In this document: piece after piece, positions 12,459 through 16,506 of the stretch
Layout: every line of letters starts with the position of its first letter
How positions within the stretch are numbered: the first letter of the stretch is position 1
Assembly: GCF_009829925.1 (NCBI RefSeq)
Contig: NZ_SNVJ01000001.1
Coordinates: 1 to 64,000 of the forward strand
DNA length: 64,000 nucleotides
Source: Teichococcus coralli
GTDB taxonomy: Bacteria; Pseudomonadota; Alphaproteobacteria; Acetobacterales; Acetobacteraceae
Reading direction: 5' to 3'
Notes under the pieces: model-generated
Databases searched by the model: none
The model's input: the letters and a program-made list of their open reading frames with translations, nothing else
Told to the model about the DNA's origin: nothing
Program-made: the position numbers and the translations under genes

Positions 12459-13184
12459 ATGACCGCTGCCACCGCCCTGCCGGACGAGATCGCCAAGTTC
12501 GACGCCCTGGCCGCGCGCTGGTGGGACCCGAACGGCCCGATGGCCCCGCTGCACCGGATGAATCCGCTGCGTTGCCGGTGGGTGGCCAGCCGCCTCGCCG
12601 CGGCGCATGGCCGCGCCGGCACCGACCTGGGGGGGCTTTCGATCCTGGATGTGGGCTGTGGCGCCGGGCTCGCCAGCGAAGGCCTCGCCCGCTGCGGCGC
12701 CCAGGTCACCGGGCTGGATGCCGCCGGCGGCGCCCTCGCCGTGGCCCGCGCCCATGCCGAGGCCGAGGGCCTCAGCATCGGCTATCGGGAGGGCCGGCCG
12801 GAGGACCTCGCGGCCGAGGGGGCGCGGTTCGACGCCGTGGTGGCGCTGGAGGTGATCGAGCACGTCGCCGACCGCGCGGCCTTTCTGGCCGCCCTGGCCG
12901 CGCTGCTGAAGCCCGGCGGGATGCTGTTCCTGTCCACCCTGAACCGCACCCCGCGCGCCTTTCTCCTCGCCAAGGTCGGGGCGGAGTACCTGCTGCGCCT
13001 GCTGCCGCGCGGCACACATGACTGGCGGATGTTCGTCACGCCCGCAGAGCTCGGGACGGAGGCGCGCCGCGCCGGGCTGCGGGTCTGCGACATCGCCGGC
13101 ATGGTGCCGGTGCTCGGCGGCAGGGAGTGGCGGGAAAGCCGCGACGTGGCGGTCAACTACATCGCGGCGGCGCGGAAGGACTGA
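12459..13184 (+). CDS. ubiG: Ubiquinone biosynthesis O-methyltransferase UbiG
   Basis: SAM-dependent class I methyltransferase of 241 residues that carries out both O-methylations of ubiquinone. Motifs are FDALAARWWDPNGPMAPLHRMNP at the N-terminus (a UbiG hallmark, shown here as a span), the SAM loop ILDVGCGAGLASEGLA at about 65-80, and VVALEVIEHV. The start at 12459 follows a CCGGAG site by 8 bases. It is divergent from lysC, and its stop is 2 bp from the stop of the DUF1178 gene on the other strand, leaving no room for a terminator. Confidence 0.95.
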   Translation: MTAATALPDEIAKFDALAARWWDPNGPMAPLHRMNPLRCRWVASRLAAAHGRAGTDLGGLSILDVGCGAGLASEGLARCGAQVTGLDAAGGALAVARAHAEAEGLSIGYREGRPEDLAAEGARFDAVVALEVIEHVADRAAFLAALAALLKPGGMLFLSTLNRTPRAFLLAKVGAEYLLRLLPRGTHDWRMFVTPAELGTEARRAGLRVCDIAGMVPVLGGREWRESRDVAVNYIAAARKD

Positions 13185-13186
13185 CC

Positions 13187-13654
13187 TCAGCTGTCGGCGC
13201 GGGGCACCCAGGGGAGCTGCGCGATGTCGACGCCTTCCTTGCGCAGCGCCTCGGCCTCGGTGTCGCTCGTTTCGCCGTAGATGCCACGGCGCTCGCTTTC
13301 CCCGCGATGGATGCGCCGCGCCTCGTCGGCGAACTCATGGCCGACATAGTCGCAGCTCTTCTCCACTTCGGCCCGCATGCGCTGCAGCAGCGCCAGCACC
13401 TGGGCCGGCATCGGCCCGGCGGCGGCCTGGGTGGTCTTGCCGGCATCCGCGGGCGGCACCGCCGCGGGCGGCGGCGCCTCCGCCGCCCGCCCCTTGCCGA
13501 GGGCGGGCGCCATCAGGGCGCGCTCCACCTTGGTGCCGCCGCAGACGGGGCAGTCGATCAGCCCCGCGCGGGCCAGCTTCTCGAAGGCCACGCTGTCCTT
13601 GTACCATCCATCGAAGCCGTGGTTCTGGTCACAGCGGAGCTGGTAGTGGATCAT
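13187..13654 (-). CDS. DUF1178 family zinc-ribbon-like protein
   Basis: Protein of 155 residues beginning MIHYQLRCDQNHGFDGWY, the hallmark of DUF1178. The N-terminal Cys/His set (C8, H12 and a CPVCGG knuckle at about 35-40) looks like an FmdB-type zinc ribbon. A Pro/Ala linker and a conserved C-terminal helix pair (EVEKSCDYVGHEFADEAR) follow. The function is unknown. The family usually lies between a glutaredoxin/nitrilase pair and ubiG. Here a 28-bp tandem array occupies the space upstream. Confidence 0.88.
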   Translation of the reverse strand: MIHYQLRCDQNHGFDGWYKDSVAFEKLARAGLIDCPVCGGTKVERALMAPALGKGRAAEAPPPAAVPPADAGKTTQAAAGPMPAQVLALLQRMRAEVEKSCDYVGHEFADEARRIHRGESERRGIYGETSDTEAEALRKEGVDIAQLPWVPRADS

Positions 13655-13708
13655 GCCGGTTCCGGGTGCATGGGACGGAACGCCCATTCTCTCATCTGGT
13701 TTGGCCCG

Positions 13709-14352
13709 GCGCAAAGCGCCGATCTGGTTTATCTCAGCGCAAAGCGCCGATCTGGTTTATCTCAGCGCAAAGCGCCGATCTGGTTTATCTCAGCGCAAAG
13801 CGCCGATCTGGTTTATCTCAGCGCAAAGCGCCGATCTGGTTTATCTCAGCGCAAAGCGCCGATCTGGTTTATCTCAGCGCAAAGCGCCGATCTGGTTTAT
13901 CTCAGCGCAAAGCGCCGATCTGGTTTATCTCAGCGCAAAGCGCCGATCTGGTTTATCTCAGCGCAAAGCGCCGATCTGGTTTATCTCAGCGCAAAGCGCC
14001 GATCTGGTTTATCTCAGCGCAAAGCGCCGATCTGGTTTATCTCAGCGCAAAGCGCCGATCTGGTTTATCTCAGCGCAAAGCGCCGATCTGGTTTATCTCA
14101 GCGCAAAGCGCCGATCTGGTTTATCTCAGCGCAAAGCGCCGATCTGGTTTATCTCAGCGCAAAGCGCCGATCTGGTTTATCTCAGCGCAAAGCGCCGATC
14201 TGGTTTATCTCAGCGCAAAGCGCCGATCTGGTTTATCTCAGCGCAAAGCGCCGATCTGGTTTATCTCAGCGCAAAGCGCCGATCTGGTTTATCTCAGCGC
14301 AAAGCGCCGATCTGGTTTATCTCAGCGCAAAGCGCCGATCTGGTTTAACGCG
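13709..14352. repeat. 28-bp perfect tandem repeat array, 23 in-phase units (22 identical)
   Basis: The unit reads GCGCAAAGCGCCGA followed by TCTGGTTTATCTCA. Copies start every 28 bases from 13709 to 14325. Twenty-two are identical by eye and the 23rd diverges after 23 bases. Degenerate in-phase units flank it: ATCTGGTTT at 13694-13702 before, and a mutated unit at 14353-14380 plus part of another after. Each unit contains a GCGC-AAA-GCGC hairpin and is about 54% GC, well below its surroundings. All three plus-strand frames are open because 28 is not a multiple of 3 and no stop occurs, while every unit has stops on the minus strand. There are no spacers. It lies between grxC and DUF1178. Confidence 0.98.
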
Positions 14353-14403
14353 GCGTAAAGCGCCGGTCTGGCTCGGCTCCGCGCAAGGCGCCTGGTCCAA
14401 GCC

Positions 14404-14664
14404 TCAGCCGGCCTGGAGAATGGGATCGAGCTTGCCAGAACGGTCCAGCGCGAACAGGTCGTCGCAGCCGCCGATCGCCTCATCATTGATGAAGATCTGC
14501 GGCACCGTGGTGCGCCCCCCGGAGCGCCGGATCGCGTCCTTGCGCTCCTGGGAGCCGTGCGGCGCGTCGTACTCGGTGAAGCCGATGCCCTTGCGGCCGA
14601 GCAGCAGCTTGGCACGCGAGCAGTAGGGGCAGAACGCGGTGGTGTAGATTTCGACCTTGGCCAT
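14404..14664 (-). CDS. grxC: Glutaredoxin 3
   Basis: Cytosolic dithiol glutaredoxin of 86 residues with the redox motif CPYC at about 12-15 (YTTAFCPYCSRAKLLL), the TVPQIF cis-Pro loop and the GGCDDL glutathione-binding motif. It uses glutathione to reduce disulfides and mixed disulfides. The start at 14664 gives MAKVEIYTT. It lies between comF and DUF1178, the usual alphaproteobacterial position, but the 28-bp array separates it from DUF1178. Confidence 0.96.
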   Translation of the reverse strand: MAKVEIYTTAFCPYCSRAKLLLGRKGIGFTEYDAPHGSQERKDAIRRSGGRTTVPQIFINDEAIGGCDDLFALDRSGKLDPILQAG

Positions 14665-14723
14665 GACGCACAGATCGGCGCGCACCGGCGGCCGGTCAAG
14701 AGCGTTTCACCGGTGCGGCGGGT

Positions 14724-15539
14724 TCAGCCCATCTCGACCAGTTCAGGGCCCGGCGTCCGCGCCACGGCCACAACATCCACCTGCGTCGCGCCAGCGGCCA
14801 GGAGCACCGCCGCGCAGGCCGAAACCGTGGCGCCCGAGGTCAGCACGTCGTCCACCAGCAGCACCTGGCGGCCCGCGACCCGCGACCCGCCGTGCCGCGC
14901 CAGGCAAAAGGCCCCATCCAGCACCGCGAGGCGCTGCGCGGCGCCGAGGCCCGCCAGCTTCGGCGTATGGCGGGCGCGGCGCAGCAGGTTCGGTGCCCAG
15001 GGCGTGCCTGAAAGCCGCGACAGCCGTGCCGCCAGCAGCCCCGCCTGGTTGTAGCGGCGGGCAAGCAGCCGGCCGCGATGCAACGGCACCGGCAGCAGCA
15101 GGTCGGCTTCCGCCAGCAGCGCGCGGCCAGCCTGCGCCATCTGCCGTGACAGCAGGCCGGCGAGTTCCGTACGGTCGCCGTACTTGAAGGGCAGGATCAG
15201 CCGCTTGGAGCCGGCATCGTAAAGCCAGGCGGCGCGCGCCCGGCCGTAGAGGGGACGACGCTCCGCGCACCGCGCGCAATGCAGCTCGCCGCCCGGCGCC
15301 GCCGCCAGCGCCTCGCCCTGCCCCGCATGGAGGAACGGCAGGCCGCAGCAATGGCAGAGAGGTTCACCGACCGGCGTCACGGCCCGGAAGCAGTCCGGGC
15401 AAAGGGTTCCCTCCGTCAGCACCAAGGCGGCGCAGGCCGGGCAGCGTGGTGGCAGCAGCGCATCCAGCGCTGCCGAGCCCAGGCGCCGCCAACGGGCCCG
15501 CAGGGCCTGCCCCGCGGCCGGCAGATCAAGAATCACCAT
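14724..15539 (-). CDS. comF: ComF family phosphoribosyltransferase-like protein
   Basis: Protein of 271 residues with an N-terminal zinc-binding double knuckle (CPAC...CPDC, then CHCCG and CARC, about 30-100) and a type I PRTase domain carrying the PRPP loop VLLVDDVLTSGAT near 220. ComF proteins are linked to DNA uptake in competent bacteria, but their biochemical role is uncertain. The start at 15539 (MVILDLPAAG) is chosen over a longer in-frame extension. It is upstream of grxC on the same strand and divergent from a methyltransferase. Confidence 0.9.
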   Translation of the reverse strand: MVILDLPAAGQALRARWRRLGSAALDALLPPRCPACAALVLTEGTLCPDCFRAVTPVGEPLCHCCGLPFLHAGQGEALAAAPGGELHCARCAERRPLYGRARAAWLYDAGSKRLILPFKYGDRTELAGLLSRQMAQAGRALLAEADLLLPVPLHRGRLLARRYNQAGLLAARLSRLSGTPWAPNLLRRARHTPKLAGLGAAQRLAVLDGAFCLARHGGSRVAGRQVLLVDDVLTSGATVSACAAVLLAAGATQVDVVAVARTPGPELVEMG

Positions 15540-15618
15540 TTCGTGACAATACAGGGCTGCCGCACCGCGCCGCAATGGCCGCTTGCGCGCCGCGGGCGCG
15601 GGGCGCATCTGCTGCCGC

Positions 15619-16506
15619 ATGGCGGATGCAATGCAGGTTTTCGATCGCGCCCTGGTCCGGTGCCGGCGTGACCGCGCGGCGGCCGGAATCGGGCGCGTGG
15701 CGCCGGTTCTGGAGGCCGGCGCGGCCCTTCTGCTGGACCGGCTCGACGACATCAGCCGCCGCTTTCACCGGGCGCTGGATATCGGCGGCCGTGGTGCCGT
15801 GGCGCCTGCCTTGCGCGCCCGCGGCGTGGAGACGGTGGTCTCCATGGACCTCTCCGCGCCCATGGCGCGGGGCGCGGGCGGCCTGCCGCTGGCCGCCGAC
15901 GAGGAGTGGCTGCCCTTCGCCACCGGCAGCTTCGACCTCGTGGTTGCCAGCCTTTCGCTGCACTGGGTGAACGATCTTCCCGGCGCCCTGCTGCAGATCC
16001 GGCGTGCCATGGCTCCGGACGGGCTGTTCCTCGCCACGCTGCCGGCGCTTGGCACGCTGCAGCCGCTGCGCGAGGCGCTCGGCCGGGCCGAGACGGCGCT
16101 GCGCGACGGGCTCAGCCCGCGCGTCTCGCCCTTCCCGGAACTGCGTGACGGAGCCGCCCTGCTGCAGCGCGCCGGCTTCGCCATGCCGGTGGCCGACCGC
16201 GACCGGCTCGACCTTCGCTACCGCTCGCCCATGGCACTGATCGCCGACCTGCGCGCGGCCGGCGAGAGCAACGCCGTACAGGCGCGCGACCCGCGCGTGC
16301 CGCCGCGCGCCATGTTCCCGCTGGCGCTCGGCGCGCTGCCGCTGGAGGAAGGGGTGCTGGCCATGCCGCTGGAACTGCTGACGCTCACCGGCTGGGCGCC
16401 CGCCCCGGACCAGCCGAAGCCCGCCCGCCGCGGCAGCGCCGACGCGCGGCTGGCGGATGCCCTGGGCACGGTGGAGCGCAAGGCCGGCGAGCGGGCCGGA
16501 GGATGA
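15619..16506 (+). CDS. BioC/NDUFAF5-like SAM-dependent methyltransferase
   Basis: Class I methyltransferase of about 295 residues. The SAM-binding region is ALDIGGRGAVAPALRARG, with the catalytic-side segment FDLVVASLSLHWVNDLPGAL, which resembles the NDUFAF5 (complex I arginine hydroxylase) and BioC group. It is divergent from comF, a common alphaproteobacterial pairing. ATG at 15619 is chosen; an ATG at 15631 is also possible. The exact substrate is not known. Confidence 0.8.
   Translation: MADAMQVFDRALVRCRRDRAAAGIGRVAPVLEAGAALLLDRLDDISRRFHRALDIGGRGAVAPALRARGVETVVSMDLSAPMARGAGGLPLAADEEWLPFATGSFDLVVASLSLHWVNDLPGALLQIRRAMAPDGLFLATLPALGTLQPLREALGRAETALRDGLSPRVSPFPELRDGAALLQRAGFAMPVADRDRLDLRYRSPMALIADLRAAGESNAVQARDPRVPPRAMFPLALGALPLEEGVLAMPLELLTLTGWAPAPDQPKPARRGSADARLADALGTVERKAGERAGG

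Follow-up and report, generated by a model that had tools for sequence, protein, structure and literature searches.

We analysed a window of 64,000 bp, the start of a 448-kb contig (NZ_SNVJ01000001.1) in the draft genome of Teichococcus coralli (GCF_009829925.1). The genome is 5.0 Mb in size, and the GC content of the contig is about 71%. On the minus strand, a comF-like phosphoribosyltransferase gene (14724-15752; Pfam DZR_2 and Pribosyltran), grxC, which encodes a glutaredoxin (14404-14664; Pfam Glutaredoxin, 1.5e-16), a tandem array and a gene for a DUF1178 protein (13187-13654; PF06676, 9.7e-50) follow one another in that order, while ubiG, on the opposite strand, converges on DUF1178. The coordinates are those of listed open reading frames; for the comF-like gene, the true start probably lies further downstream than the listed frame suggests. 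The Pfam matches confirm both genes between which the initial annotation had placed the array. The gene neighbourhood, which it described as conserved, is indeed so: grxC adjoins DUF1178 at 28 of 29 related loci, an order conserved across the family, and comF precedes the pair at 24 of the 29.

The array is centred on an exact period-28 run of 639 bp (13709-14347), within which 22 complete and identical units of 28 bp occupy positions 13722-14337 (unit ATCTGGTTTATCTCAGCGCAAAGCGCCG; on the minus strand, in the sense of the flanking genes, CGGCGCTTTGCGCTGAGATAAACCAGAT). Successive units abut exactly, with no spacers between them. Tandem Repeats Finder (TRF) extended the call to 13694-14392, with 25.0 copies, 97% matches and a score of 1293. 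The runner-up tandem repeat of the contig scored only 301, which excludes a chance origin of the array. On either side of the core lie degenerate units in the same phase. The unit on the DUF1178 side (13694-13721; gene-sense CGGCGCTTTGCGCCGGGCCAAACCAGAT) and the inner unit on the grxC side (14338-14365) each match the core at 24 of 28 positions. The most diverged unit (14366-14392), separated from the stop codon of grxC by 11 bp, matches at 20 of 28 when compared over 14366-14393. These results uphold the initial description of 22 identical units with degenerate in-phase edges and without spacers. They do not uphold its view that a 9-bp fragment at 13694-13702 (ATCTGGTTT) was the seed of the array, as these nine bases only open a complete, degenerate unit of 28 bp. 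The array was also rightly called AT-richer than its surroundings: its GC content is 55%, compared with 71% in the window as a whole, and the lowest-GC 600-bp segment of the entire contig falls inside it. The tandem repeat that ranks second in the contig (G000 contig C1:220978-221169, L073) has 3.8 copies of 42 bp and is probably coding, since its period is divisible by three.

Searches of the whole genome allowing up to three mismatches placed the unit at this one site only, so that it is tied to this locus and is not a generic repeat, a point on which the initial annotation had asked for a comparison with the genome and its relatives. The unit was absent from 18 congeners, and a 20-base part of it, searched against all 19 genomes of the genus, gave only scattered three-mismatch matches in the congeners. 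Among 299 genomes of the family there was no array; the sole match outside the genus covered 26 bp (E 8e-4, locus L129), where an intact hairpin core was not found. A degenerate form of the pattern gave 12 isolated single matches, none of them tandem, in 85,000 species genomes (GTDB species set) and one isolated match without tandem context in viral contigs, two collections that may not include the genome studied here; we treated these matches as chance. The unit had no match in plasmids and phages. The core sequence GCGCAAAGCGC occurs at 16 other, isolated sites in the genome, around which the remainder of the unit was not found. The literature on tandem repeats in Roseomonas contained nothing relevant. 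On these sequence comparisons, the array is private to this genome and species-specific.

The grxC-DUF1178 spacer is about 750 bp here, compared with 2-111 bp in the 16 readable congeners with matching gene order; two further congeners were left out of scoring, G011 because 689 consecutive N (L117:1721-2409) fill its locus across grxC and the start of DUF1178, and G017, which is 71% complete, because it gave no DUF1178 match. At four congener loci (L030, L032, L035 and L037) grxC and DUF1178 overlap by TGATG, leaving zero room for any element, while other congeners have a spacer of 48-111 bp. The overlap suggests, from the sequence, that the two genes may be translationally coupled at those loci.

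The nearest congener, G003, shares 90-92% DNA identity with the window where synteny extends over long blocks, a figure that falls to about 86-87% next to the array. At the corresponding place in its grxC-DUF1178 spacer there is a single hairpin, CGGCGC-CTG-GCGCCG. This aligns with the edge unit on the grxC side, the most diverged of the edge units being similar to it, at a nearly equal distance from the grxC stop codon. It also aligns with the DUF1178-side edge unit, after which the two sequences have a tail in common. Each of these two edge units lies next to its own conserved flank. Against shuffled G003 spacers, the similarity of the hairpin to the edge units had a P of 0.01-0.03 per unit, which is moderately significant in GC-rich DNA, and we regard homology with the array unit as probable, not certain. 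A single intercistronic hairpin such as that of G003 explains the seed of the array better than a 9-bp fragment does.

The 22 core units carry 0 substitutions in 616 bp, which limits divergence since their last homogenisation to at most 0.49% (95%). The flanks differ from G003 by 10-14%, or about 5-7% per lineage, in keeping with the recent expansion or homogenisation first proposed from the identity of the units. Provided that the assembly is correct and rates are neutral, the last homogenisation would date to about the final tenth of the period since the two species split. The edge units differ from one another at 4-10 bases and from the core at 4-8, a pattern consistent with a short older array that drifted at its ends and underwent later amplification of its inner unit.

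Taken together, we consider the array very probably to be a young, lineage-specific minisatellite, a locus of the variable-number tandem repeat (VNTR) type, in the intercistronic spacer of comF-grxC-DUF1178. In the history that we infer, the ancestral spacer would have held one GC-rich hairpin, and local tandem duplication would have yielded a few 28-bp copies, the outer ones of which have since drifted. More recently, one inner copy would have multiplied in place into about 22 identical ones through replication slippage and/or unequal recombination, a process that the hairpin-forming nature of the unit probably helped. The array is probably neutral.

The array shares with bacterial minisatellites a head-to-tail arrangement of units of tens of bp (here 28 bp, within the usual range of about 10-100 bp) in a spacer, near identity of the copies, restriction to one lineage, a single locus in place of dispersed copies, and a copy number that short reads resolve poorly. 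Copy number also differs between related genomes, with 25 units here, one probable unit in G003 and a short spacer in each of 15 further congeners, a difference that depends on the probable homology of the G003 hairpin and, with one genome compared per species, is seen between species only. In Mycobacterium tuberculosis, VNTRs lie upstream of lpdA, dop and cysG, and four copies at lpdA give 12.5-fold higher expression than one (PMC12817950). In contrast to these VNTRs, the array described here sits within a gene string, between co-directional genes, and has more units, all fully identical and each with a hairpin; the lpdA VNTR is a promoter repeat, which this array is not. It is a real minisatellite of a known kind, an ordinary but unusually clean example: it probably grew from a single hairpin, and a sister species apparently still shows the locus with one copy. 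The array could be used for typing, and as a model for the amplification of a hairpin-bearing unit within a gene string.

Two readings would place the array in some other class. The short palindromic unit, its intergenic position and a length near that of CRISPR repeats might point to the insertion here of an atypical repeat from a REP/BIME or CRISPR-like family. REPs are likewise small GC-rich palindromes in intergenic DNA, but they are dispersed and tied to RAYT genes (PMC3686654), whereas this unit has a single site with no dispersed copies, and the other GCGCAAAGCGC sites lack the rest of it; the unique spacers of a CRISPR array are missing. The sister genome, moreover, has a single-copy hairpin at the matching place, and we find such an insertion extremely improbable. 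A plus-strand gene for a protein with a 28-residue super-repeat is just as hard to credit. All three plus-strand frames are open across the array, which simply reflects a unit without plus-strand stop codons, and the longer frames continue into the conserved genes DUF1178 and grxC, to which they are antisense; relatives have no homologue of the array. Plus-strand Pfam matches were rejected as repeat artefacts, being sums of tiny repeats in which no stretch passes alone.

The GCGC-AAA-GCGC hairpin ascribed to each unit is present in the sequence, but separate hairpins are not the minimum-energy fold of the RNA. One unit has a predicted fold energy of -8.4 kcal/mol and two units together -22.7 kcal/mol, because the arms of adjoining units pair with each other. 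For 22 units, a nested rod is predicted at -288.7 kcal/mol and separate hairpins at -193.2 kcal/mol. The RNA with over twenty evenly spaced hairpins envisaged by the initial annotation thus gives way, in the model, to one long nested rod, although local hairpins may form first during transcription.

A functional, copy-number-variable regulatory element, in which DUF1178 (or grxC) expression would depend on how many units are present, by way of intercistronic RNA structure or translational uncoupling, would suit the position between co-directional genes and has a precedent in the dependence of lpdA expression on VNTR copy number (PMC12817950). The sense RNA of the whole spacer folds far better than shuffled sequences (-345.8 kcal/mol, z -11.5), yet a perfect hairpin repeat folds well whether selected or not. 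The element is not conserved in any congener. Promoter scanning of the region gave no promoter-like site, and Rfam covariance models had no match at E≤1 over 13000-15000. In the gene sense the hairpin is not an intrinsic terminator, since no U-run follows it; the only terminator-like match is on the opposite strand, in an edge unit, and is no better than expected from shuffled sequences. A test of relatives with a spacer for a common, unusually stable fold showed nothing consistent within the genus and so does not establish a conserved regulatory hairpin. We found no evidence for a function of the array, any regulatory effect is unproven, and we judge a regulatory element of this kind to be quite unlikely. 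If the array acts at all, the likeliest route, by analogy with REPs, would be as a structured intercistronic RNA that separates grxC and DUF1178 expression, either shielding the upstream message or uncoupling the gene downstream. A phase-variable form of this idea, in which gain or loss of 28-nt units alters the nested stem and reversibly shifts the grxC/DUF1178 ratio, is very doubtful.

The reliability of the copy number depends on the assembly, a draft of 76 contigs. The only N of the contig, at position 397983, lies exactly between two copies of a 45-bp sequence (C1:397938-398028, L082). This looks like a scaffold join at which overlapping contig ends were left unmerged, and a single N within a duplicated overlap suggests short-read scaffolding. 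A perfect repeat of 639 bp is hard to size with short reads. The array might therefore comprise few true units, with the 28-bp cycle unrolled by the assembler or a gap filler, or be the collapsed form of a longer one; in favour of this, exact repeats of at least 60 bp are otherwise absent from the contig, except in one further tandem array. Against this, unique sequence and graded edge units bound the array on both sides, there is no N within it, contig ends elsewhere do not carry the unit, and the distinct edge units imply that at least several copies exist. A copy-number artefact is unlikely in our estimation. The presence of several units with distinct edges is secure, unlike the exact number of 22, which is taken from one draft assembly.

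The spacer carries a different element in other genera of the family. At three loci (L036, L039 and L044) an inverted repeat, TGGCACTC-N9-GAGTGCCA, lies in the grxC-DUF1178 spacer just 5′ of DUF1178; it is absent from the window. We take it to resemble the CIRCE operator of the heat-shock repressor HrcA, TTAGCACTC-N9-GAGTGCTAA. If this likeness is true, the uncharacterised DUF1178 gene would be under heat-shock control in those genera.
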